A stretch of 64,000 bases of DNA from Thermococcus onnurineus NA1 (lineage in GTDB: Archaea > Methanobacteriota_B > Thermococci > Thermococcales > Thermococcaceae), in assembly GCF_000018365.1 (NCBI RefSeq), contig NC_011529.1, positions 1,054,001 through 1,118,000 on the forward strand, written 5' to 3'. The first letter of the stretch is position 1. Each line of letters begins with the position of its first letter. Positions 31,678 through 47,828 of the stretch are shown piece by piece. Made by a program: the position numbers and the translations under genes. The notes under the pieces were generated by a model that ran no database searches, was not told the origin of the DNA, and saw only the letters and a program-made list of their open reading frames with translations.

Positions 31678-32385
31678 TCACTGGAGCTCCATAACGGCGT
31701 CGGTGTAGGTGCTCGGGGTGGTGAACTCTATAACACCGGGAGCACCGAACTCCGGAACGACCTGGCCGGTGATCTTCTTGCCCGGAGCAATACCTGGGCT
31801 GAAGACACCGCTGTCGGTAGTTCCATCACCGTTGACGTCAAGGTCTCCAACGAGGACGGTGAGTATGACAAGGTCGCCCTTGTTGAGGGTCGGGTGGGCA
31901 TCAGTAAGACTTGTATCAGCATCTTGGAGAACTATGATACCAAACTCAGAAGTTGGCTCATCTGCCAGCTGTGACCAAGCATTCAGTGTTGTGCTAAATA
32001 TGTCACTGACAACACCGGTATCAAAGGCATAAGCAACATCTGCAGTATCATACTTCAGAACAGCCTCAGTGGACTCACTCCTGAGGATTATCTTGGTGTT
32101 GCTGAGATCAATTCCAGAGCTGCCTGCGTTCGGGGTAACGTAGATGGCAAGCTGCTCGATGTACTGGTTGCTCGGAAGGTTGTTAGCCTTACCAACGACC
32201 CTCTCGACCTGTATGCCGCTGGCTACCTCCTGAGTGGTCTCCCTGCCGGTGCTGGAAGCCTTCTGCTGGAGGAACCCGCTGGTGTTAATCAGAACCGCAG
32301 CAGCAACTGCCGCCACTAAAACCATGGCTATGAACACAATCAGGGTACCGATACCCACGGCACCTCTCCTTGTCCTGGCCTTCAT
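31678..32385 (-). CDS. arlB: Archaellin, first in the cluster
   Basis: The 235-residue product ([21 protein letters not shown]...) is the first gene after the operon promoter and so probably the major archaellin. The hydrophobic N-terminal helix, '[30 protein letters not shown]', and the C-terminal '[27 protein letters not shown]' are clear. It has a DxNxDG loop ([12 protein letters not shown]). Start ATG 32385 is behind GGGGGTGCGTGGAGA. Confidence 0.93.
32200..32346. repeat. 147-bp direct repeat copy 2 (archaellin 1, 5' part)
   Basis: Second copy of the repeat at 31456-31602, located in the 5' part of the first archaellin gene. It is 744 bases away in the same orientation, so unequal recombination could delete or duplicate an archaellin gene. 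Confidence 0.75.
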
Positions 32386-32430: not shown

Positions 32431-32442
32431 GTAAATATAAAG
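32431..32442 (-). promoter_or_regulatory. TATA box of the archaellum operon
   Basis: On the minus strand CTTTATATTTAC lies 46-57 bases before the first archaellin ATG, so the message would start about 20 bases upstream of the ATG. It is the strongest TATA element in the gap before the operon and lies 18 bases downstream of the triple hexamer repeat. Confidence 0.7.
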
Positions 32443-32460
32443 GTCTTTTTTGTTCTTAGT

Positions 32461-32490
32461 AGTGTAGGTGGTTGTGTAGGTGCATATGTA
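32461..32490 (-). promoter_or_regulatory. Triple 12-bp-spaced hexamer operator of the archaellum operon
   Basis: Read in the direction of transcription the site has TACATA (32490-32485), TACACA (32478-32473) and TACACT (32466-32461), starting exactly 12 bases apart and joined by TGCACC and ACCACC. A nearly identical 30-base site stands before cheR. TACACA-type repeats are the reported target of the activator EarA in Methanococcus; an EarA homologue is encoded next door. The binding is inferred. Confidence 0.65.
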
Positions 32491-32600
32491 GGTACCTGAA
32501 AGGACATCCAAAACTCACTGGGAGATGTGCCAAAAACAACAAGGGACAAAGACATTAATTAAGGATGGTACAAAGTAGTGAAAAAGCAGAGACTATGGAA

Positions 32601-33554
32601 TTACATCTTCTTAACGACCAGCATGCTCCTCGCTGGCTGGCTTATCTCAACGTCAAAGCCCTCATTCAGGATGGCATCTTTCACATCCCGGGCGGACGGG
32701 AAGCCAATGAAGTCCTTGTTGAGGCCCTCGAAGAACTCCAGGGCCTGGACATACTTGAAGGTGTCTCTGAAGGGCTCAAGGATTACCATCCTACCACCAG
32801 AATTGAGGGCCTCCATGGCGCGCTTGAGTACCATGGGAAAGTCATCGATGTACTCAAGGACGAAACTGAGGAAAACAGAGTCGTACTCGTTCACAGGCCT
32901 TATGAGCTTCGCGTCCATCTCCTTGAGCTCCACCGGCAGGCTCTTATCCTCGATACGGGCGCGAGCTATCTCAATGAGCGCCGGGGAGTAGTCGATGCCG
33001 AGGTAGAAGCCGTTGTATCCTATCATCTCCCCGAACTGGAGCGGGGAATATGAGCCACAGCCAATGTCAAGAACATGCATCCCCTGTCTAAGGCCGGCCA
33101 CCTGGGCCATCGCCTCGCGGTAGATGCGGGAGAACCTTGTGCTCATACGTATGTCCCAGAAGTCAGCGTCCTTGTCGAAGTCCATGAGAACGTGGGGGTG
33201 AATGGGAGTTATGAATGCATAATCCACCATGCGGTAGATCTCCTCCTGGATGGGAACCCAGTCCGGGACGAGAAGGTCGTACTTCTCATCTGGTACGTTG
33301 ATGGTATATGAGAAACCATCGAGGTACAGCCTGCCGTTTTTCTCCTTGACTATCTTCAGGCTCTCGAGGGTCTCTATGAAACCGAGTAGAAGGCGCCTGT
33401 TGGGAAGATCCACTTCATCTATCAGCTCCTGAATCGTTGGCCCCCTTGCAAGAAGTGGAAACACACCATGCTTGGTTCCAAGGCTGATTATTTCAAGCAC
33501 CGAGAACTTAATCATCTGCTCGATGTTGGCATCGACGGCATCGATGGGATTCAT
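32601..33554 (-). CDS. SAM-dependent methyltransferase linked to the archaellum cluster
   Basis: The 317-residue protein has an N-terminal winged-helix-like dimerisation part (SVLEIISLGTKHGVFPLLARGPTIQELIDEVDLPNRRLLLGF) and a class I methyltransferase domain with 'MHVLDIGCGSYSPLQFGEMIGY', 'YLGIDYSPALIEIARARI' and 'GGRMVILEPF'. A similar methyltransferase sits beside archaellum genes in Pyrococcus. The substrate is unknown; a modification of archaellin glycan or another motility component is a guess. It starts nine bases after earA and both read toward the archaellin genes. Confidence 0.75.
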   Translation of the reverse strand: MNPIDAVDANIEQMIKFSVLEIISLGTKHGVFPLLARGPTIQELIDEVDLPNRRLLLGFIETLESLKIVKEKNGRLYLDGFSYTINVPDEKYDLLVPDWVPIQEEIYRMVDYAFITPIHPHVLMDFDKDADFWDIRMSTRFSRIYREAMAQVAGLRQGMHVLDIGCGSYSPLQFGEMIGYNGFYLGIDYSPALIEIARARIEDKSLPVELKEMDAKLIRPVNEYDSVFLSFVLEYIDDFPMVLKRAMEALNSGGRMVILEPFRDTFKYVQALEFFEGLNKDFIGFPSARDVKDAILNEGFDVEISQPARSMLVVKKM

Positions 33555-33563
33555 GTTATCACC

Positions 33564-33893
33564 TCACATGAACCTCCTGTAATAGCGGTAATATTCCTTG
33601 AGGTAGTCCACAACCTTCTTCCCGTAGTCTGTCAGGCGGTAGTATTTGAAGCCGTTATTAGAAACCTCCTCCACGAGGCCAAGGTACACAAGAGAGCTCT
33701 CACCGTTGTAGCGGTTGCCGAGGCCAACCAGGGCACCTCTGACGTTCGATGGATCAGAACCGACCACCCTTGCTATCTCCGAGAGGTACGTCGCAGAAGG
33801 ATATATTTCGCTCAAGTACATCAGTATCTTCTTCCTCAGTTCGCTGCGGTGGATAGAACGCAACACCTGTGGATCAACGATCACTGCGTTCAT
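33564..33893 (-). CDS. earA: EarA-type transcription activator of archaellum genes
   Basis: This 109-residue winged-helix protein matches euryarchaeal archaellum regulator A. The first helices are 'RSIHRSELRKKILMYLSEIYPSATYLSEIARVVGSD', recognition helix 'PSNVRGALVGLGNRYN', wing 'LVYLGLVEEVSNNGFKYYRLTDYGKKVVDYLKEYY', and a Tyr/Arg-rich end. In Pyrococcus and Methanococcus EarA binds TACACA-like sites upstream of the archaellin promoter. Such sites occur here before arlB and cheR. The ATG is behind GGGGGGAGGGAGG. A possible TATA on the minus strand lies at 34006-34016. Confidence 0.82.
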   Translation of the reverse strand: MNAVIVDPQVLRSIHRSELRKKILMYLSEIYPSATYLSEIARVVGSDPSNVRGALVGLGNRYNGESSLVYLGLVEEVSNNGFKYYRLTDYGKKVVDYLKEYYRYYRRFM

Positions 33894-34245
33894 CCTCCCT
33901 CCCCCCGAAGTTCATGGCCAGCTTCGGCGTCCCTGATTATAGCCACTGAATGATCACTGAGGATCATGGACACACCACTCCCGTACATAACATTGCCATT
34001 TGTAGAATATATAACGTTTTTGGTCAGACCATGGGAATAACTCATCAATGATAATCTTTGATTGTAGAATTTTCATTCAGAAGTTGAACAAAATTGGTAT
34101 CAAGAACAATCATCCAATGATATGGATAATTTCCAATTCACTGTTTGGTTCTCTGTGGCATATATCGACTCACTACGGTAGAAGAGCATAAAATCTAAAT
34201 ACCATAACGCCGCAGATTACACGGCTGAAGCCAGGTGGTATGGAT
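33894..34245. other. Divergent regulatory gap between earA and the coiled-coil gene
   Basis: This 352-base stretch has no gene. It holds a minus-strand TATA-like GTTATATATTC near 34006-34016 for earA, leaving a leader of about 90 bases. It also holds a plus-strand element ATAAAATCTAAATACC at about 34189-34204 for the coiled-coil gene. An imperfect inverted repeat ATCAATGATAATCTTTGAT lies at 34044-34062. No TACACA triple is present, so these two genes do not seem to share the archaellum operator. No RNA gene was recognised. Confidence 0.55.
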
Positions 34246-35325
34246 ATGATAATCGAGCTCGCCGTTACCGCGGGAGTTGCCATTGTTCTGGCGTACTACG
34301 TCAGGGACGTGACGGACAAAGTCCTGGCCAGACACTTTGAGCTCAAAGAGGAGCTCGGCGAGCTTGAGTCCAAGCTCTCAAAAGTGAGGGACGAACTAGA
34401 ATCAGAGATAAGGGACGTCAGGTCGAGTGTTTCTTCAGGGGAAGCTGGGGTCAAGGAAGAGGTCAGCCAGATGCTCAGGGCGGTAGAAGAGAAGCTCAGG
34501 AGACTAGAGGATTCCCTTAAAGAGCTCCAAAAGTTCGAAACAAGGGTGGACTACGAGCTTGGTAACGTCAGGCTTGAACTGGACAAGACAAACCAACGCC
34601 TCGAATCTCTCAAAGAGGAACTAGAGAAGACCAAGAGCGTACTCAGGGAAGAACTCAAGAGGGAGCTCCTTTCAGAGCTCGAGGAAGAGATAGAGCACCT
34701 CGAGGAAGCCATAGAAAGGAGGAAGCAGACAGAGGTTGAGGAGTTCTTGGAAGTCATCAAGGCGACTGTGACCCTTCAACCAGAGAAGCTCAGCGCTGGC
34801 ATGGCCGAAGCAAAAAGGGCCCTGTTATCTCTGAGGGACATAGCCAAGGTCTACGTCCTTACCGGACACGGACAGATGGAGTTCAGAGAGCTCAAGGAGA
34901 ATATCATAGAACTCCTGAAGAACCTGCGTAAGCTGGCCATAGTGTCCCTTCCAGACGAGAATGTCTATGCAACGTTCAACGATATAATCGTTAGAGTGAA
35001 GAGGCTCGATATACCAATGAAAGTAGACAGGGATGGGAAAGAGAAAGAACTGAACCCGGAGAAAAGCTTCATCCAGATCCACAGGATAGTCTATGAACTC
35101 GCCGGTGAGCTTGACAGAATAGCCGGGGAGCTTCAAGAGCCGATACCGGTTACGCCAGTCGAGAAGGAGTTCTACGAGAAGCTACGGCACCAGTTCGAAG
35201 AACTAAGAAGGCTGGAAGAGCAGGTGCAGAGACTTATGCTAAGACTCGGTGCCGAAAAAGAGAACATCGGAGGAGCAAAGGACAGAAGCGTGGAGGAAAT
35301 ACTCAGAGAGCTCGACCTACTTTAG
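34246..35325 (+). CDS. Membrane-anchored coiled-coil protein, motility-locus family, member 1
   Basis: The product of 359 residues begins with one membrane helix (IIELAVTAGVAIVLAYYV), then a long coiled coil to about residue 165. A conserved C-terminal domain follows: 'LRDIAKVYVLTGHGQMEFRELK', 'IPMKVDRDGKEKELNPEK', 'AGELDRI'. The same domain, at the same relative positions, ends the protein encoded at 46033-46782. ATG 34246 is preferred over 34240 because AGGTGGT is then six bases away. It is convergent with cheW. I do not recognise a named family; its location suggests a role in chemotaxis or motor placement. Confidence 0.7.
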   Translation: MIIELAVTAGVAIVLAYYVRDVTDKVLARHFELKEELGELESKLSKVRDELESEIRDVRSSVSSGEAGVKEEVSQMLRAVEEKLRRLEDSLKELQKFETRVDYELGNVRLELDKTNQRLESLKEELEKTKSVLREELKRELLSELEEEIEHLEEAIERRKQTEVEEFLEVIKATVTLQPEKLSAGMAEAKRALLSLRDIAKVYVLTGHGQMEFRELKENIIELLKNLRKLAIVSLPDENVYATFNDIIVRVKRLDIPMKVDRDGKEKELNPEKSFIQIHRIVYELAGELDRIAGELQEPIPVTPVEKEFYEKLRHQFEELRRLEEQVQRLMLRLGAEKENIGGAKDRSVEEILRELDLL

Positions 35326-35762
35326 AACTCCTCGCCGAGGAGCTTGTCAAGGTCGACCATTATGAGGAGCCTCTCCCCGTTGTTTATTTTGGCTATGCCC
35401 TTTATGTAGCGGATGTCGACCCTGTTGCTAAGAGTCTTCGGCGGCTGGTCTATCTGCTCGTCGGTCAGGGTTATGACGTCCGAGACCGAATCCACGATTA
35501 TGCCTATTATCTCGTCCTTGACTTCTGCAATGATTATTTTCTTCTTTGAGAGGTCTCCATCAGGGTCATGGTAACCAAGGAGCTTCTTGAGATTGACGAC
35601 GGTCGTTATCTGTCCGCGAAGGTTTATGACACCCTCAACGAAGTCCGGGGAGTTAGGCACACGAGTTATTGGCATCATTTCCTTTATCTCCCTGACCTTT
35701 GAGATATCAAGACAAAACTCCTCGTTTCCAACCATAAAGGCCACGACCTGAATCTCGGCCAT
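35322..35762 (-). CDS. cheW: Chemotaxis coupling protein CheW
   Basis: The 146-residue protein is a single CheW domain: 'FMVGNEEFCLDISKVREIKEMMPITRVPNSPDFVEGVINLRGQI' is the hallmark, followed by 'VNLKKLLG' and 'IIGIIVDSVSDVITL'. It links MCP receptors to CheA. Start ATG 35762 (MAEIQVV) has GGAGGTGATGGG upstream; the longer frame starts in the MCP end. It is the last gene of a two-gene minus-strand unit with the sensorless MCP and overlaps the convergent gene by four bases. Confidence 0.93.
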   Translation of the reverse strand: MAEIQVVAFMVGNEEFCLDISKVREIKEMMPITRVPNSPDFVEGVINLRGQITTVVNLKKLLGYHDPDGDLSKKKIIIAEVKDEIIGIIVDSVSDVITLTDEQIDQPPKTLSNRVDIRYIKGIAKINNGERLLIMVDLDKLLGEEF

Positions 35763-35766
35763 CCCA

Positions 35767-36993
35767 TCACCTCCGGACGGTACTAACCTTTTCAAGAAGT
35801 TCCTTTGACTCAACTATTGACTGTTCGAGGTCCTTAAGACCACTTCGTATTTCATCCAACCGTGACTGCATCATGGTGAAGGACTCAACAACCGGAAGCA
35901 TAACGTTAGATATCTCGTCCTGAAGGGCGTAGACGCCATTGATGGTGTCCATGAGCATTTGAACGGACTGGGCCTGTCCTTCTATGCTGTCGGAGAGTTC
36001 TTTTATCATGTTGGCCGTCTCGTTAGCTCGCCTAGCTATGTCGTCGAAGGCCGCTATGAGCTCTTGAACCGCGTCCTTTATCTCCTCGGTGACCCTGAAC
36101 TCCTGCTTTATCGAACTCACGACGGTATCAATGCTCTCCTGCATGTCCCTGATAAGTTCCGTAATCTGGTCAGTGGACTTTTTTGACTGATCCGCCAGCT
36201 CACGGATGTTCTCTGCAACGACAGCGAAGCCTCTACCGTGCTCACCACTTCTAGCAGCTTCAATGGCAGCGTTCAAAGCGAGCAAGTTGGTCTGCTCCGC
36301 TATACTGCTGATGACTTCGACTATCTCGCCTATCCTCTTAGAGTGCTCCACAAGTATGGAAACCGCCCTCTCCATGTCCTGATTGACCTCGGTAATGCTG
36401 GCAACGTTGAGGGCGACGTTATCAGAGATGCGTTTCCCGGTCTCGGCCATATTGGCGGTCTCAAGGGCATAGTCGGTGAGTGCCTGTGCCTGAGTGTTCA
36501 TCTCCTCTATACCCGCGGTAAGGGTCTGGATGTAGTCCCCAAGTTCGGCAACGGTGGAGCGCTCCCTTTCGAGGGCGCTCGTAAGCTCATCGTGTTCCAC
36601 ACTAACTCCAACGTCAAGAGTCGGTAGGAGGGAGGACAGCTTCTCTCTCGCCTCTTCAAGATTTTGAAGAACAGTCTCAATCTCGGGCAGGACTGAAACC
36701 CGCTGAACTTCCACATTTCTTTTGCCGAGGGCCTTTATCTTGTCCTCAATGGCAGTTATTCGGGCTGCGGTTTCGGCCCCAAGCTTTGAAAGATCAACGC
36801 TCTCCCCGTCCAACAAGGCTTCGAGGGCATCCAGAATCCTACTCAAATCATCACTTGGCCGCGAGAGGTAGGCAGAAACGGCAACGGCAGAAACTAGGCC
36901 GAGTGCAAGCCCAGCCACAGAGGATACCAAAGTCCCAGCAAGAGTAAGAAGTGATACTGAACTCACCGCTGCTATGGTGACTGCACGGGTCAA
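35767..36993 (-). CDS. Methyl-accepting chemotaxis-like protein without a sensor domain
   Basis: The 408-residue protein has two close membrane helices at the N-terminus ([39 protein letters not shown]), no room for an extracellular sensor, and no clear HAMP. The signalling domain is a long helix hairpin with the tip '[43 protein letters not shown]'. It probably senses an internal or membrane-borne cue, or another partner protein. I chose TTG 36993 over GTG 37002 because GGAGGTG lies six bases before it. The start of cheW follows its stop by four bases. Confidence 0.85.
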
Positions 36994-37111
36994 TGGCCAC
37001 ACCTCCAGTGCCGCTGTTTATTCAATACAGCACAAGGGATAAAAGATTTTCGAATGTAGATAATAACTTTTAATACGCGTTAATAGAATAATCAATTATG
37101 ACGTAACTGCC

Positions 37112-37141
37112 TACCTATGCACCTACACAACCATCTACACA
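37112..37141 (+). promoter_or_regulatory. Triple 12-bp-spaced hexamer operator of the che operon
   Basis: The plus strand has TACCTA (37112-37117), TACACA (37124-37129) and TACACA (37136-37141) with starts 12 bases apart and spacers TGCACC and ACCATC. Over 30 bases it differs from the archaellum operator at only a few positions and has the same orientation to its gene. This is the strongest shared non-coding signal in the window and points to a common regulator, plausibly EarA. Confidence 0.65.
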
Positions 37142-37150
37142 TAAAGATTT

Positions 37151-37189
37151 TTTATGCAAACAGTGCATAAATTTTTGCAAAGTTTGCAA
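37151..37189 (+). promoter_or_regulatory. Core promoter and two inverted repeats before cheR
   Basis: GCATAAATTTTT at about 37165-37176 stands 23 bases past the last hexamer and is a good TATA box for cheR. It lies within TTTATGC-(7)-GCATAAA (37151-37157 and 37165-37171) and just before TTGCAAA-G-TTTGCAA (37175-37189), both perfect 7-base inverted repeats. The second one overlaps the expected message start and could be a repressor site. Confidence 0.5.
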
Positions 37190-37236
37190 TAACCAACCTA
37201 ACGCGTGGGATAATCCCCAATGGATGCGTGACCCAA

Positions 37237-38100
37237 ATGATGGATGTAAAAGACCCCGGCTACCTAAAGATTAAGAGGGAATTGTTTCGGCACCTGAAGG
37301 TTAGTAGCGACGCCTACAAGGATACGTACCTTGTAAGGCGCATAAAGGCAAGGATGAGAAAGCTCGGTATAAACAACTACATGAATTACTACCACATGAT
37401 AAGGACAAACAAGCAGGAGCTGGACGAGCTACTACTCACGGTGGCAATAAACGTCACAGAGTTCTTCAGGGACTCAGTGGTCTGGAGAACCTTCGAGAAA
37501 AAGGTTATCCCGGAACTTGTTAGTTACAAGAAGGAGCACCACACAAGCACCATTAAGATATGGAGCGCCGCATGCTCCACAGGACAGGAGCCGTACTCCA
37601 TAGCTATGGCCCTCCACGAAGCCCTAGGTAAAAACCTCAGCGGATTCAGGGTGCAGATACTAGCAACTGACATAGACAGAGAGGCTTTGGCAACGGCCAT
37701 AAGGGGAGAGTATCCCGCAGACGTTGTGGAGAAACAGGTACCGAGGCACATGATACCCAAGTACTTCACCAGGATAAGCGAGGAGCGCTACAGGATCTCG
37801 CCCAAGATAAAGCGCCTAGTCAAGTTCCAGCAGTTCAACCTCTTCAGCCCGACGTATCCAAAGGGCTTCGATGTAATATTCATCCGCAATGTACTGATCT
37901 ACGTAAAGAGGGACGCCCAGGAGGAGATATTCGCCAAGCTCTATGACTCCCTCGAAGACCACGGTTATCTCATCCTTGGCAAGACTGAAACCATACTTAG
38001 CAACGCTGCCAAGCTGTTTAAATTATACGACCTCGTCGCGAGGATATATCGCAAGAACCTGGAGGTGAAAGGCCATGGCACGGGTTTTGGTCGTAGATGA
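37237..38100 (+). CDS. cheR: Chemotaxis protein methyltransferase CheR
   Basis: The product of 287 residues has the N-terminal helical CheR part (YLVRRIKARMRKLGINNYMNYYHMI) and the C-terminal SAM domain 'KIWSAACSTGQEPYSIAMALHEAL', with 'ILATDIDREALATAIRGEYP' and 'VIFIRNVLIYV'. It methylates Glu residues of MCPs. Start ATG 37237 (or 37240) follows GCGTGA. The 3' end overlaps the cheY start by 26 bases. It is the first gene of the plus-strand che operon. Confidence 0.94.
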   Translation: MMDVKDPGYLKIKRELFRHLKVSSDAYKDTYLVRRIKARMRKLGINNYMNYYHMIRTNKQELDELLLTVAINVTEFFRDSVVWRTFEKKVIPELVSYKKEHHTSTIKIWSAACSTGQEPYSIAMALHEALGKNLSGFRVQILATDIDREALATAIRGEYPADVVEKQVPRHMIPKYFTRISEERYRISPKIKRLVKFQQFNLFSPTYPKGFDVIFIRNVLIYVKRDAQEEIFAKLYDSLEDHGYLILGKTETILSNAAKLFKLYDLVARIYRKNLEVKGHGTGFGRR

Positions 38101-38437
38101 CGCAGCGTTTATGCGCATGCTGCTGAAGAAGATACTAACCCAGGGAGGCCACCAGGTCGTTGGAGAAGCTGCAAACGGAAAGGAGGCTGTTCAGAAGTAC
38201 CAAGAACTCAAGCCCGACATTGTAACTATGGACATAGTTATGCCCGAAATGGATGGGATTACCGCTGTGAAGGAGATAAAAAAGGTTGACCCAAACGCCA
38301 AGATAATCATGATCACCGCCGTCGGCCAGGAAGGAAAGGTCATGGAAGCACTAAAGGCAGGCGCCTCGGGCTACATAGTCAAGCCGTTCCAGGCCCCCAA
38401 AGTGTTAGAGGAAATAAATCGCGTGTTGTCAAGCTAA
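38075..38437 (+). CDS. cheY: Chemotaxis response regulator CheY
   Basis: The 120-residue single receiver domain has the acidic pair D8/D9, phospho-acceptor D53 in 'IVTMDIVMPEMDG', T81 in 'IIMITA' and K103 in 'YIVKPFQAP'. Phosphorylated by CheA, it carries the signal to the archaellum, in archaea through CheF. Its start lies inside the end of cheR. Confidence 0.95.
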   Translation: MARVLVVDDAAFMRMLLKKILTQGGHQVVGEAANGKEAVQKYQELKPDIVTMDIVMPEMDGITAVKEIKKVDPNAKIIMITAVGQEGKVMEALKAGASGYIVKPFQAPKVLEEINRVLSS

Positions 38438-38448
38438 GGGTGGGTTAG

Positions 38449-39561
38449 ATGCCGCTGAACTCACCCGGCAGAAAAATTAGAGTGCTAGTTGTCGATGATT
38501 CAGCGTTCATGAGGAAGATACTTGGAGATATAATCAACTCCGATCCCGAGCTTGAAGTCTGCTGCGAGGCAAGAGATGGAATAGAAGCCATTAACATGGT
38601 CAGGCTCCACAAACCGGATGTGATCACACTCGACATAGAAATGCCCCGGATGAATGGCCTCGACGCTCTCCGCGTAATAATGAAACAGAGCCCCACCCCG
38701 GTCATAATGGTGAGTGCCCGGACCAAGGAGGGCGCCGAGGCCACGATAAAGGCCCTTGAATACGGCGCCATTGACTTCATACCCAAGCCGAGCTCCTCTA
38801 TTTCTATAAACATGAGGGAGATGAAGGATGAAATCATCGCAAAGATCAAAGAAGCTGCCAGAGTCCCTAGGAGGTTCCTTGAGATTAGGAGGACGAGGCT
38901 CCTAAGGGCACAGAAAACAAAGGTCAGAAAACCCAGCGTCCCGGCCAGGACAGTGGTGGCTATGGCCTCATCAACCGGTGGTCCGCAGTCCCTCCTCAAG
39001 GTGTTCCCCAAGTTCCCTGACAACCTAAAGGCCGCAGTGCTCTTGGTGCAACACATGCCACCGGGATTCACCAAATCGTTCGCCAAGAGACTTGACAGTA
39101 TCAGCAAGATAGATGTCAAGGAAGCTGAGGACGGTGAGCCCATCGAGGAGGGCAAAGGCTACGTTGCCCCAGGAGACTACCATATGGAAGTGAAGATGAG
39201 AGGAGGAAAGCCTGTCATAACACTCAATAAGAAGCCGAAGATTCACGGGGTAAGGCCTGCTGCAGATCCGATGATGACAACCGCGGCAGATATCTTTGGG
39301 AGAAGAACTGTTGGAGTAGTAATGACTGGAATGGGCCGCGACGGTGCTCAGGGTATAATCGCGATTAAAAAGAAGGGGGGCATCACCATAGCCCAGGACA
39401 GGGAGACGTCGATAATCTTTGGAATGCCAAAGGCGGCCATTGAAACCGGCATGGTCGACTACGTCGTTCCCCTTGATAAAATCGCTGAGACCGTGGTGAC
39501 GGCAGTGAACAAGATTAACAGGGGTGGTACCGATGGAGGACCTCTCTCAGTACTTAGATGA
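38449..39561 (+). CDS. cheB: Chemotaxis response regulator/methylesterase CheB
   Basis: The 370-residue protein has a receiver domain (acceptor D62 in '[12 protein letters not shown]') and a C-terminal methylesterase. The catalytic Ser175 lies in '[15 protein letters not shown]', the His in '[19 protein letters not shown]', and the Asp in '[15 protein letters not shown]'. It removes methyl groups from MCPs during adaptation. The 3' end overlaps cheA by 29 bases. Confidence 0.95.
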
Positions 39562-41878
39562 GTTCCTTGCCGATGCGAGGGATAGGATAGACAGCCTCAG
39601 CAACGCCATACTCACGCTAGAGAAGATAGTCAAAGAAGGCGGCAGCGAGGAAGAAAAAAAGGCCATGATAGACCAGATATTCAGAGACGCACATACGCTC
39701 AAGGGTACCGCTGCAACTATGGGATTCATGAAGCTCAGCGAAGTTGCTCACAAGATGGAGAATCTGTTTGATCTTGTCAGAGGCGGGAAGATTGAGCCAA
39801 CCCCAGATCTCATAGACGTCCTTCTTGAGTTTCTTGATGTCATTGAGGGGATGGTGGACAGCATAGAGGAGAACGGGAACGAAGGGGACTTTGACGTCGG
39901 AGAGCTGTTTGAAAAGGCCCAGAAGTTCTTTGAGAGGAGCAGACCAGTAGAAAAAGCTGCCTCTAGTACACAGCCCAAAGAACCCCTGACGGGAGAAAAA
40001 ACACCCGAAGAAGCCGGGGCTGAAGCCGAGAGGACAGCACCCTCTGGGGAAAAGGGGGAGCTTCCAAGGTACAGGATTAAAGTTTACTTCCACAAAGATG
40101 CCCAGCTCAGGGGCGTACGGGCCTTTCTCATACTCTCAGACCTAGAGGAGCTTGGTGAGATAATCGAAACGAAACCGGGTAGAGAGATCATAGAGGATGG
40201 GAAGGCCGACGTTGACGTTCTGGAGTTTGTTGTGGCCACTGAGGAGAGCCCTGAAAGACTTAAGCATGTGGTGACGAGACACCCAGAGGTTGAGAGGGTC
40301 GAGGTGGAGGAGTACCATCCCGCCGCGGGACAAGAAAACAAGACGTACACTGTCACGGTGTACATCCAGAAGGACGCTCCTTTGAAAGGAGTCCGTTCCT
40401 ACCTGATTCTGCAGGATCTTCAAAAACTTGGAACTGTCCAGAGAACCATCCCCGACACTGTGGCGATTCAAAACGGTGATATCATCGATGGGCACTACTT
40501 CAAGGTTTTGATGGTATCCAATGTGTTACCCAATGACATCGTCAAAATTGTGCGCAAGCATCCCGACGTGGAAGACGTCAAGGTTGAGGAAGGGGACAGC
40601 ATCGAGGTAGAAACCAAGGAGGAGACAGAGAAATCGAGGGGTCCCGAACAGCAGGCAGAGAAGAAAGCGGAGAGCAAACCTCAGAAGCTCAAGACCGTGC
40701 AAACTCCAAAGGTTAAGGTGTCGAAGATTATCAAGGTCGATGTCTCCCACCTCGACAGGCTCATGAATCTCGTGGGTGAGCTCGTCATTACCAAGGGCCG
40801 TTTGGAGCAGATAGCCGAGAGACTGGGCGACAGGGAGCTTCTCGAAACGCTCTCAACGCTCTCAAGACTTCTTACCGAGCTCCAAGACGAGATAATGGAA
40901 ATGCGCCTTACACCTGTGGCGGAGGTCTTCAACAAGTTCCCCCGTATGGTTCGTGAGCTGGCAAGGAAGATGGGGAAGGAGGTCGAATTCATCGTTGAGG
41001 GCGCAGACATAGAGGTCGATAGGACGATACTAGACAAGCTAGGTGATGTTCTTGTCCATCTCCTGAGGAACGCCATAGATCATGGGATCGAGTCTCCAGA
41101 CGAGAGGGAGAAACTTGGAAAGCCACGCACAGGGAAGTTGGAACTCATAGCGAAACGCGAGAGAAGCCACGTCGAGATAATAGTCCGTGACGACGGCCGC
41201 GGTATCGACCCCGAGAAGATAAAACGCAAGGCCATTGAGAAAGGCCTCATAACACCGGAGCGGGCCGCGGAGATGAGCGACGAGGAGGCCATAAACCTAA
41301 TCTTCCTGCCGGGGTTCAGCACCAAGGAGCAGGTCACCGACGTCTCCGGAAGGGGCGTCGGAATGGACGTCGTAAAGGACGTCGTAAAGAGCCTGAACGG
41401 TACTATATCCGTCCAAAGCGAGGTCGGAAAGGGCAGCACGTTTATTCTGAAGCTACCGGTCAGCATGGCCATCATCCAAGCGCTTCTCATCGAAGTGCAG
41501 GGCGAGGTCTATGCAGTGCCAATAAACAACATCCTCGAGAGCATCGAGATAAAACGTGAGAACCTCAAAAGCATAGGTGGAAAGGATGTCATAGTACTCC
41601 GCGGCGAGATAATCCCTGTGATAATGCTCCACGAGCTCTTTGGACTGCCCATACCGGAGAAAGACGAGTTCCCAGCCATAGTGGTCGACCTCGGCGCCCA
41701 AAAGGTGGCAATTGGCGTCGACGAACTTCTCCACAAGAAGGACATAGTCATCAAGAGCCTCGGCAAGATGCTCTCCCATATCAGCGGCTTCGCCGGAGCA
41801 ACTATACTCGGCGACGGTAGCGTCGTTCTAATCATCGAGATAAATGGGCTGCTCGGTGGTGGTAGGAGTGGAATATGA
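39533..41878 (+). CDS. cheA: Chemotaxis histidine kinase CheA with two tandem P2 domains
   Basis: The 781-residue kinase has P1 with phospho-His54 ('[14 protein letters not shown]'), two P2-like domains at about 180-262 and 271-365 (both with '(F/I)-x-KDA-x-L-(R/K)-GVR-(A/S)-(F/Y)-LIL-x-DL'), P3 dimerisation at about 400, P4 kinase with N-box '[11 protein letters not shown]' and G boxes 'DDGRGIDP' and 'GRGVGMDVV', and a CheW-like P5 at the end. The ATG at 39533 has GGGGTGGT upstream. The doubling of P2, which docks CheY and CheB, is noted elsewhere. Confidence 0.94.
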
Positions 41879-42500
41879 AAACTACGAAGGGTACATCAAA
41901 AACCTCGACGAGTTCGCAAAGAGTGTGCTAGTTGAGACCTTCAACATAGGAGCCTCTCGGGCAGCAGATGCCCTCAGTGAGATGACTGGGTTAACTGTCA
42001 ACATAACTGTTCCGGAGATAGACATCACGCCAATCAAGAGTGTGCCGGAGAAGGTCGGAGAGGACATAAAGATAGCGGTGTACATACAGTTGAGCGGTGG
42101 CTTTAATGGCCATGCGTTCTTTTTCATGGATTTTAAGGACGCCCTTACAATGTTTGACCTCATGATGGGAATGTCCCCCGGAAGCACCACAAAGTTTGAC
42201 GAGATAGTGCAGTCCGCAGTGATGGAGGCGGGCAACATACTGATATCCGCTTTCGCAAATGCACTCAGCGAGTTCCTTGGGACCGAGATAAACCAGACGC
42301 CACCCAACTTGGCTATTGATTTCCCTCCTGCCATACTCGACTTTGCGCTCGCTGACATAGGCCAGCACTGCGACTACACCATGCTTCTAAAGACTCAGAT
42401 GACAGTAGAGGGCGTTGAGTTCAGGGAACACTTCATGATACTCCCACATCCATTCTCTATGAAGAAGATTATAGATACCCTTCTGGAGGGATTTGTATGA
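41868..42500 (+). CDS. cheC: CheY-P phosphatase CheC, first copy
   Basis: The 210-residue protein has the two CheC active-site helices: 'LVETFNIGASRAADALSEM' and 'SAVMEAGNILISAFANALSEF', each with E-x2-N. A FliY/FliM-like fold is expected. It removes phosphate from CheY and partners with CheD. GTG 41868 (MEYENYEG) follows GGTGGTAGGA; the open frame extends eight codons upstream within cheA. It overlaps cheC2 by four bases. Confidence 0.9.
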   Translation: MEYENYEGYIKNLDEFAKSVLVETFNIGASRAADALSEMTGLTVNITVPEIDITPIKSVPEKVGEDIKIAVYIQLSGGFNGHAFFFMDFKDALTMFDLMMGMSPGSTTKFDEIVQSAVMEAGNILISAFANALSEFLGTEINQTPPNLAIDFPPAILDFALADIGQHCDYTMLLKTQMTVEGVEFREHFMILPHPFSMKKIIDTLLEGFV

Positions 42501-43222
42501 GAAAGTACAAGAGCTGGTTTTCCGAATGGTACCGGGACATATTCCGTGAGGCGTCCAACATAGCGATAAGCCACGCGCTGACTGCACTCTCAAACATGAT
42601 CGGCGAGATTGAAATGGAGCCCCCTGAAGTCGAGGTTATCCCTCGGACAAAGTTCCTAGCTACCCTTGCCGCAGAGGGAATAAGCAACAGCTTCGTCGTA
42701 ATGTTTGACATAACCGAGGGACTCAGCGGCCTCACCATCCTGCAATTTCCGAAGAAAAGCGCCCAAGCACTCGTATCGCTGCTCCTTGGCATGGCGCCCA
42801 GTGATGACGGAATAGACGACATGGGGCGCTCGGCGATAATGGAGATAGGAAACATACTCATCTCAGTCTATACCGACATACTGGCCAAGCTTATTGAAGA
42901 ACCCGTTTCCCTCAGTCCGCCAAAGCAGGCCGAGAGCCCGTACGACGTGGAGAGAGAACTTGCCAGACCAGACCTCAGGGACGTTCTGGAGGTTATTATC
43001 TTCAGGACGCGCTTTTATCAGTCCAGCACAGGGGTCGAGAGCCTATTCTATCTTGTACCCACCAAGGATGCATTTGATAAACTGGTTGGACGGCTGGAGG
43101 CTCAAGTCAAAGACATCGAGCCCGTATCACAGTCTGACGAAGGCACTGGGCCCAAGTTGGATAGTTCTGTTCCCCCAGTGAATTCAAGCACACTAAAAGA
43201 AAACGAACCCGGCGAGGGTTGA
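42497..43222 (+). CDS. cheC: CheY-P phosphatase CheC, second copy
   Basis: The 241-residue paralogue keeps both motifs ('IFREASNIAISHALTALSNM' and 'SAIMEIGNILISVYTDILAKL') so it may be active. The C-terminal 40 residues form a polar, Pro/Ser-rich tail (VSQSDEGTGPKLDSSVPPVNSS...) absent from the first copy. ATG 42497 overlaps the stop of cheC1. Two CheC genes are common in euryarchaea; the exact split of labour is unknown. Confidence 0.9.
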   Translation: MRKYKSWFSEWYRDIFREASNIAISHALTALSNMIGEIEMEPPEVEVIPRTKFLATLAAEGISNSFVVMFDITEGLSGLTILQFPKKSAQALVSLLLGMAPSDDGIDDMGRSAIMEIGNILISVYTDILAKLIEEPVSLSPPKQAESPYDVERELARPDLRDVLEVIIFRTRFYQSSTGVESLFYLVPTKDAFDKLVGRLEAQVKDIEPVSQSDEGTGPKLDSSVPPVNSSTLKENEPGEG

Positions 43223-43225
43223 GAC

Positions 43226-43714
43226 TTGCAGGAGATAAAGGTCGGAATCGGCGACTACGCTGTCGGAAAGAAGGCCGGGATAATAAGCACCTATGGGTTA
43301 GGCAGCTGTGTTGGCATAACTCTGTACGACCGTCTCACAAAGGTAGGTGGCCTGCTCCATGCCCTTCTGCCTGAAGCAGCATACTATGGAAATAAAGGCA
43401 ATCCTGCCAAATATGTTGATACAGGCTTGCAGCTCCTCCTAAGGGACTTCCAAAAGCTCGGGGGCAACCCCAGAAGGACCGAGGCAAAGATCTTCGGAGG
43501 GGCGCACATGTTCACCAATGTCACTAGCGACCAGCTCATGATAGGAAAGAGGAACATAGAGGTCGCCAAGAAGGAGCTGAAGAGGCTTGGAATCAGGCTC
43601 GTGGCCGAGGATACAGGGGGAAAGGGCGGGAGAACCATCTACTTTGACCTCTCAACGGGTAAAGTCAGAATGAGGAAGGTATCAAATGGGCAGGTCATTG
43701 AGAAGATCTACTAA
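43226..43714 (+). CDS. cheD: Chemotaxis receptor glutamine deamidase CheD
   Basis: The 162-residue protein starts with TTG 43226. It has 'ISTYGLGSCVGITLYD' with the active-site Cys, 'GGLLHALLPEA' with the His, and 'AKYVDTGLQLLLRDF' with the Thr. It deamidates Gln on MCPs and is also bound by CheC. It ends 37 bases before the MCP gene. Confidence 0.93.
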   Translation: MQEIKVGIGDYAVGKKAGIISTYGLGSCVGITLYDRLTKVGGLLHALLPEAAYYGNKGNPAKYVDTGLQLLLRDFQKLGGNPRRTEAKIFGGAHMFTNVTSDQLMIGKRNIEVAKKELKRLGIRLVAEDTGGKGGRTIYFDLSTGKVRMRKVSNGQVIEKIY

Positions 43715-43745
43715 GCAGATAAACTCAAACTTCCCTCAGGGGTGA

Positions 43746-45995
<2,250 letters not shown>

Positions 45996-46032
45996 AACCT
46001 TTCATTATTTCATTTTGCCTGGGGGTGGAAGC

Positions 46033-46782
46033 ATGGACTGGGTGATGATAGCGATCATAGCCATCGTAGTGCTGATGGGAACCGCCCTGTCGGCGTACAT
46101 GATATCAAATACTATCAACAACCAGATGGGCGAGCTCTACGCAGTGCTTCTGGAAAAGGAGATGAAAGAAGGTAGGAAACCAGCCACAGCGCCGTCAAGA
46201 ACCAAAAAGGAAGAAACAAGCATTGTGGAGCAGAAAAAGACGAACGTTTCGGGTGTCAATGAGGAAGAACTCATTAAAAAGCTCAGGCAGGTTATTGACG
46301 AGAAGGTAGAAAGGGTTCTCGATGAGGCTAAACACAGGAAGGAAAAGCTTCTCATGCTCCTAGACGTGGCTAGGGGCTACACTCTGGGATATATCACGGA
46401 GGATGAATACAACGCCTTCCTCATGAAGGTACTCTCGGAGCTCGATGAGTTCAAGCGCCTCTGGCTGGCCCGCTTCCCAAGCCAGAGAGATAGAGAAAAG
46501 CTCAACCTCATGATAAACTACATCACCAAGACCAAGTTGCCCATAGTCCTTAAGAGCAAGGATGGGAAGGAAACTATTAACCTTCCTCCGGAGGAGGCGT
46601 TGATAAGGATCACAAGCAATATAAACAGCGCGGTGAATATACTCGATGAGCTCATAAGCAGCAGAGGAGAAAACCCCGCCGTCACCCCACTTGAGGTAAA
46701 ACTCTCCCAAGAGTGTGGGCAGCTCCGTGCAAAGGTCGAAAAGCTGGAGAAACAGCTCGAGGAGTACAGCGCCTTAACTTGA
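46033..46782 (+). CDS. Membrane-anchored coiled-coil protein, motility-locus family, member 2
   Basis: The 249-residue protein has one membrane helix at the N-terminus (MIAIIAIVVLMGTALSAYMI), a polar linker, then a helical domain with 'LLDVARGYTLGYITEDEYNAFLMK', 'FPSQRDREKLNLMINYI', 'LPIVLKSKDGKETINLPPEEALIRI' and 'NILDELI'. This lines up without gaps over 41 residues with the end of the protein at 34246-35325. A short coiled coil closes the chain. ATG 46033 has GGGGGTGGAAGC upstream. Located between the MCP and cheF, it is part of the che operon. No named family is known to me. Confidence 0.72.
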   Translation: MDWVMIAIIAIVVLMGTALSAYMISNTINNQMGELYAVLLEKEMKEGRKPATAPSRTKKEETSIVEQKKTNVSGVNEEELIKKLRQVIDEKVERVLDEAKHRKEKLLMLLDVARGYTLGYITEDEYNAFLMKVLSELDEFKRLWLARFPSQRDREKLNLMINYITKTKLPIVLKSKDGKETINLPPEEALIRITSNINSAVNILDELISSRGENPAVTPLEVKLSQECGQLRAKVEKLEKQLEEYSALT

Positions 46783-46802
46783 GGACATAGAGGGGATGAA
46801 CC

Positions 46803-47828
46803 ATGGCAGTGGCAGAGGCGAGGGTAAAAACCGCCATAATTTCCTCATGGAAAGGCTCAGCAGGGGTGGACTGGAGAGACGCAATAGGCATTATCCAGAA
46901 CGACAGGCTTATCCTGAGGTATCTCCGCATGGGAGAGATTGTTGGGGAAGACAATTTCCCATTCTCATCGCTCTCAGACCTGAGTGTAAACGTCCCCGAC
47001 AATTACAAGCTCAATCCCGAGAAGGAGCATTTTGGGATGAAGTTCTACATTCCCGGGAGGGGAGAGTTAACGTTAATACTCACAATAGGTGACAACCTCC
47101 TGATATACGACGAGAACAAGTTTAGGGAGTTCATTCACACAATATTCGAGATACTCATTAACGGCAAGGCAGTAAAGCTGCTGCTGGCCAGAGTCAAGGG
47201 CGGAGCGATAAACATGGAGCCCCAGTGGCAGGACGGATCGCTCAGGATAGTCTCCATAAAATCCGCCAAAAGGGGGAAGACCGAGAGGAACGTGGTAGTT
47301 CTTGATCCGGACAGGAAGCCGATACCAATATTCTCCGACGTCGAGGATATGGACGTGGAAGAGATCGACATGAACGGCAAAAAGGTTGAGGCCTGGAAGA
47401 TAAAGCACTTCTATGTGAATGAGACCATTATCTCCTATCTATACATACCAGAGAAAAAGACCAGACTGTACGTGCTCCGCTACCTGCTCAAGTATATACC
47501 CGGCTACTTCGAGTTCATCATGAGGGTGTCGAAGGAATTCCCGATGCTTCAGACGGAATTCAGAGAGGTCATGGAGAAGGAACTTAAGGAACTCGAGAGC
47601 CTCGACGAAATGGAGAAGCAGATCCTCATGGCACTCTACTCAGGTCTCAACCCGTTAGAGGTGCATCAGTTCCTCGGCCTCGATGAGAGGGAAATAGAGG
47701 AGATATACGACAGGATGATAGACAAGGGGCTCCTAAAAATAGTCATGATAAGGAAAGTCGTTGATCTCACAAGGGATGGCAGAAAGATAGTCAATAAGCT
47801 GATGGAATATGGCCTCATGGCAATGTAA
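46803..47828 (+). CDS. cheF: Archaeal chemotaxis adaptor CheF
   Basis: The 341-residue protein matches the archaea-specific CheF family (DUF439): N-terminal beta-rich part (AVAEARVKTAIISSWKGSAGVDWRDAIGIIQNDRLILRY) and C-terminal winged-helix part (LDEMEKQILMALYSGLNPLEVHQFLGLDEREIEEIYDRMIDKGLLKIV). In Halobacterium CheF binds CheY, CheD and the archaellum proteins ArlC/D/E and so joins the sensory system to the motor. It is the last gene of the operon. Confidence 0.9.
   Translation: MAVAEARVKTAIISSWKGSAGVDWRDAIGIIQNDRLILRYLRMGEIVGEDNFPFSSLSDLSVNVPDNYKLNPEKEHFGMKFYIPGRGELTLILTIGDNLLIYDENKFREFIHTIFEILINGKAVKLLLARVKGGAINMEPQWQDGSLRIVSIKSAKRGKTERNVVVLDPDRKPIPIFSDVEDMDVEEIDMNGKKVEAWKIKHFYVNETIISYLYIPEKKTRLYVLRYLLKYIPGYFEFIMRVSKEFPMLQTEFREVMEKELKELESLDEMEKQILMALYSGLNPLEVHQFLGLDEREIEEIYDRMIDKGLLKIVMIRKVVDLTRDGRKIVNKLMEYGLMAM

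Follow-up and report, generated by a model that had tools for sequence, protein, structure and literature searches.

Known systems closest to the promoters described here are the operators of EarA, the activator of the archaellum genes. In Methanococcus maripaludis EarA is required for archaella, the fla operon carries four 6-bp EarA sites together with a weak BRE, and binding of the protein in vitro has been reported for fla of this species only (Ding et al. 2017; PMC5512572). EarA is likewise essential for archaella in P. furiosus, and among Thermococcales the motif A(C/G)(C/G)TACA(T/C) stands one to three times before arlB0, with the regulation of che-bearing species left to future work (Stockl et al. 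2023; PMC10665913). More distantly comparable are TFB-RF1 of P. furiosus and Ptr2 of M. jannaschii, which as cited in PMC10665913 and PMC5512572 bind upstream of a weak BRE/TATA and recruit TFB or TBP; these are distinct regulators with target promoters of their own, not those of motility genes. A separate line of work in T. kodakarensis identified a 23-bp motif, TTTGTGTABSTGBTTATGTAGGT, before fla, che, TK0156, TK2147, TK1139 and TK1605 (beyond the two operons, two MCP genes, an AAA ATPase gene and an FprA-like gene), all of which change together; its function was called unclear and sensitivity to DNA topology was suggested (Villain et al. 2021; PMC8643681). These genes rise under gyrase expression, with a fold change of about 54 for fla versus about 6 for che (PMC8643681), and the same genes fall in histone mutants, by about 7-65-fold for fla versus 2.7-10-fold for che; TK1605, which carries a metallo-beta-lactamase superfamily annotation, and the MCP gene TK1606 are among those that fall (Sanders et al. 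2021; PMC8155482).

The window analysed here, a stretch of 64,000 nucleotides from Thermococcus onnurineus NA1, contains archaellum (arl), earA and che loci with the following features.

31678-32385, minus strand: arlB0, first archaellin gene of the arl operon (PF01917, 153.2 bits)
32434-32447, minus strand: probable arl TATA box TTTATATT (32441-32434) and BRE (32447-32442), from sequence reading
32461-32490, minus strand: arl operator, three hexamers TACATA-TACACA-TACACT at 12-bp pitch (sequence and pattern scan)
33564-33893, minus strand: earA, the proposed activator (PF07381, 116.4 bits against a cut-off of 22)
35322-37002, minus strand: divergent MCP gene (411 aa) and CheW-like gene (MCPsignal PF00015, 131 bits)
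37112-37141, plus strand: che operator, three hexamers TACCTA-TACACA-TACACA at 12-bp pitch (sequence and pattern scan)
37142-37155, plus strand: probable che BRE (TAAAGA) and TATA box (TTTTAT, 37150-37155), from sequence reading
37228-47828, plus strand: che operon, cheR first and cheF last, genes overlapping or closely spaced (Pfam and gene spacing)

The ends of the che operon are supported by Pfam matches of 190.2 bits for CheR (PF01739) and 45.4 bits for CheF (PF04283), and the genes between them are named from sequence reading. With their spacers included, the two operators read TACATA-TGCACC-TACACA-ACCACC-TACACT (32490-32461, minus) and TACCTA-TGCACC-TACACA-ACCATC-TACACA (37112-37141, plus). 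The window sequence bears out the first-pass annotation, which had reported these triple hexamers with the same coordinates, strands and letters and had described the 30-bp blocks as nearly identical: 27 of the 30 positions are equal. Without mismatches, the triple-hexamer pattern occurs in the window and genome at the arl and che places only. Four matches were observed in the window versus 0.15 expected in shuffles (0 of 100 shuffles reach 4), the remaining two, each with 3 mismatches, being the arl and che sites offset by one 12-bp unit. Outside the window the genome was examined by pattern search; across its 1,847,607 bp, fewer than 3 mismatches are found only at the arl and che sites, every other match has 3, and the total is 12 matches versus 18 for the reversed control pattern.

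Consistent with the EarA operators published for M. maripaludis (Ding et al. 2016, 2017) and Thermococcales (PMC10665913), both NA1 sites consist of tandem TACAYA-type hexamers upstream of BRE/TATA, and the arl site belongs to the same hexamer family, TACATA or A(C/G)(C/G)TACA(T/C). Read against the Thermococcales motif, CACCTACAC and ACCACCTACAC agree with it, as does the central che hexamer, and the outer che hexamers TACCTA and ATCTACAC are each one base off. TACACA had initially been taken as the EarA target of Methanococcus; the hexamer cited in PMC10665913 is TACATA, and what stands of the claim is that TACACA is a variant within the Thermococcales motif. The arl site of NA1 falls in the published class and its triple-hexamer motif is already published, whereas the published operator is reported for the archaellum operon only, without a fixed pitch or a register rule for che, MCP and ODP genes.

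We posit that both 30-bp blocks represent one activator operator, most likely that of EarA, which would serve a joint motility and chemotaxis regulon (probability roughly 0.8). The regulon had been proposed in the first-pass annotation, and the presence of one conserved operator at both motor and che promoters is consistent with it, both through the conservation of the sites and through the published co-expression of fla and che. The EarA homologue assigned to 33564-33893 proved to be a true member of PF07381; across ten family members the protein shows 90% mean column identity, with a nearly invariant helix-turn-helix region. No hexamer array was seen by eye in the region upstream of earA, so there is no sign that earA regulates itself through the array element. 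Mechanistically, the operator would be made of tandem CCTACAY half-sites at a strict 12-bp pitch just upstream of BRE/TATA, and EarA bound to tandem hexamers beside a weak BRE may recruit TFB, in line with the proposal for M. maripaludis. Such recruitment would jointly switch on arl, che and sensor genes that are not linked to them (MCPs, an ODP-MCP operon and an AAA ATPase). Both T. kodakarensis studies saw che follow fla, up in one and down in the other, which argues against repression at che.

A search of 94 Thermococcaceae genomes for the exact pair CCTACAY-N5-CCTACAY returned 154 matches versus 5 for the reversed pattern, and when spacers of 0-24 were allowed in 29 che-bearing genomes almost all matches had spacer 5, equivalent to the 12-bp pitch, with the others scattered. 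The array is common to che and arl promoters of the family, as the operator claimed for NA1 would have it, and the 12-bp pitch alone is enriched. Out of 103 pair places fetched, 77 adjoin archaellin (19, an undercount, since the fetch skipped many arl places), MCP (32, in four families), ODP (22), AAA ATPase (2) or lone CheY genes (2). Many of the other 26 lie within coding sequence, and L129 and L172 are probably ODP sites with the gene beyond the fetched stretch; pair matches such as CCTACATCGGCCCCTACAC inside long ORFs were excluded as promoters, being coding false positives, and no clear motility target was found beside pair sites L085, L097, L100, L161, L086 and L170. Besides arl and che, NA1 itself carries a pair before a 419-aa MCP gene (G000:664,556) and a one-mismatch pair before an ODP gene (G000:1,620,412). 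A lone CheY-like gene near earA also carries the operator in genomes that have EarA and archaellin and in which CheR was not detected (L157 and L169, in genomes G055 and G067; L058, L059, L067 and L068).

Placement of the array relative to the TATA box differs between target classes. In all 13 arl promoters measured, 20 bp separate the end of the last TACAYA hexamer from the TATA hexamer. The corresponding distance is 7-8 bp in 27 of 30 cheR promoters (the TATA pattern missed the other three) and 8 bp at the NA1 che promoter, which places the che array one repeat unit of 12 bp nearer the TATA box. The arl array, lying one unit further out, may in this way set a different response strength, and the larger fla changes in T. 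kodakarensis would fit such an effect of register. One Cache-MCP family has its array 6 bp from TATA in 6/6 cases, and in ODP promoters the array is inverted yet close to TATA. The pair before the 419-aa MCP gene (L215, at G000:C1:664,556; L091, L121, L142) is inverted, about 63 bp from TATA and at the 3' end of the upstream gene, a combination that sets it apart from the other targets, and it misfits a simple operator geometry. A further suggestion of the first-pass annotation, that the protein binds as a trimer of sites on about one face of the helix, is not supported as a general rule, firstly because most other targets (MCPs and ODP) match as pairs, some of them inverted, and secondly because at 10.5 bp per turn a 12-bp step rotates about +51 degrees per unit beyond the full turn, so that three units spread roughly 100 degrees, on the same broad side of the helix rather than in one line.

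The one-unit shift between arl and che and the inversion of some sites could also mean that a different DNA-binding protein acts at the che, MCP and ODP sites, with EarA confined to arl. We regard this as unlikely, because arl and che use the same hexamers at the same pitch, with 27 of 30 bases identical in NA1, and EarA is found in 31 of 32 che-bearing genomes. Overall, EarA was detected in 72 of the 94 genomes, and the mean number of pair matches per genome is 3.16 with che and EarA, 1.05 with EarA only and 0.59 without EarA. Archaellin is also absent from 9 of 9 EarA-less genomes checked; EarA and archaellin are thus lost together, and co-occurrence cannot separate EarA from another motility regulator. 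One genome (G076) has che with the site while EarA and archaellin are absent from the assembly, and two (G049 and G081), whose assemblies are possibly incomplete, keep MCP or ODP sites without detected EarA. Taking sites and co-occurrence together with the published arl case, we infer that EarA would occupy and activate the che, MCP and ODP sites as well.

The operator hexamers can be traced directly in the motif of Villain et al., the reverse complement of which equals two hexamers at 12-bp pitch. Its consensus matches at 21 of 23 positions at arl and 20 of 23 at che; four places in the window score at least 19, and the next best scores 17. The target classes derived here independently (arl, che, MCPs, ODP and AAA ATPase) agree with the Villain list, which came from six promoters of one species and was drawn up without an EarA link; we found no such connection in the literature searched, subscription papers being outside reach. 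The element might instead be a promoter motif sensitive to chromatin or supercoiling and not the operator of a dedicated regulator, a reading that draws on the rise of the motif genes under gyrase expression and their fall in histone mutants of T. kodakarensis (PMC8643681, PMC8155482). The strict 12-bp pitch, the restriction to motility and sensor genes, the occurrence in both orientations and the match to published EarA sites at arl (PMC10665913) all speak against it, and a response to topology can itself run through EarA; we consider this explanation very doubtful. With respect to the AAA ATPase class, the operator was observed before a gene whose product has a Vps4-like C terminus (L153, L160), and the AAA ATPase gene TK1139 responds along with fla and che in T. 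kodakarensis (PMC8643681).

Conservation of the che site was assessed across the family, in which CheR was detected in 33 of 94 genomes, one of them (G063) by a distant 36% match. Every one of the 30 cheR loci retrieved has the array, at comparable distances before the gene, so the absence from close relatives that would have counted against the proposed regulon was not encountered. These loci include nine genomes of genus-level group g3 (probably Pyrococcus), in whose complete genomes che lies far from earA (e.g. G007, with cheR at 284,792 and earA at 346,693), and the cheR array is also kept in genomes where che is unlinked from arl. In 15 diverse cheR promoters anchored on the array, the three thirds of the array carry on average 1.31, 1.82 and 1.34 bits per column, and the flanks in this same array-anchored set mostly carry 0.13-0.65 bits, with higher values only just upstream (0.81) and at BRE/TATA (1.18 and 0.97). 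The array is the most conserved block of the cheR promoter, and its central hexamer does not vary among ten aligned sequences; the arl site is likewise conserved before arlB in related genomes. Presence of the che array at every locus retrieved, also with che far from arl, combined with its peak of conservation in the promoter, makes the cheR site look to be under selection. Chance or a recent local duplication, which the near-identity of two blocks 4.6 kb apart might suggest, is extremely improbable and was rejected: the cheR block is kept at 30/30 loci amid flanks that are not conserved, it remains in genomes that have che and arl apart, and shuffles of the window give 0.15 matches.

Extending the EarA reading, we consider it slightly better than an even bet that EarA is a Thermococcales master regulator of the motor, the chemotaxis machinery and receptors including the ODP-MCP pair, acting through a modular 12-bp array whose register relative to TATA, as in the one-unit shift between arl and che, sets output, and that in T. 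kodakarensis the motility genes responsive to topology make up the regulon of EarA. To the published picture this analysis adds the link between the Villain motif and EarA, conservation throughout the family, the 12-bp rule with its one-unit register shift, and the ODP-MCP link. If true, EarA would be a coordinator of motility and sensing rather than an archaellum-only activator, a point that Stockl et al. deferred to later work for che-bearing species (PMC10665913); the Villain 23-bp motif would gain a protein (PMC8643681), and the response of fla and che, the operons hit hardest by gyrase expression and chromatin defects, would become easier to explain. Shared control, the operon partner and co-occurrence of the genes would at the same time connect an archaeal ODP-family protein with chemotaxis.

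Directly after the NA1 ODP gene comes a 260-aa ORF that by reading has a typical MCP signalling stretch, and an inverted hexamer pair stands in front of the two genes (L214, 446-2030; G000:C1, about 1,620,445-1,622,029). Assignment to PF19583 gave 240.3 bits, above the curated cut-off, for the ODP orthologue of G024 and, with the same model, E 1.4e-69 for the NA1 gene. An ODP orthologue is present in 27 of 32 che genomes versus 3 of 62 others (Fisher p about 2e-15, uncorrected for relatedness). Genetic coupling of an ODP oxygen sensor with a soluble MCP is known from Treponema denticola (PMC7666581), and here too an ODP-family protein adjoins a soluble MCP-like protein; the present host differs in being archaeal, and both oxygen sensing and action on CheA are putative. 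We propose the ODP gene and its soluble MCP-like neighbour as a candidate archaeal oxygen-sensing chemotaxis module.

Several smaller features accompany these loci. Between earA and the che locus, window 34240-35325 encodes a 361-aa coiled-coil protein with no Pfam family above cut-off. In the divergent MCP/CheW promoter (window 37000-37100, minus) a lone CTACAT hexamer is spaced from the TATA box much as at che; it is kept in close relatives only and missing in more distant genera. Many che and MCP arrays have, 12 bp upstream, a CGTAAY element (window 37103-37108), which is also found just 3' of the TATA box in arl promoters (L081, L087, L095).
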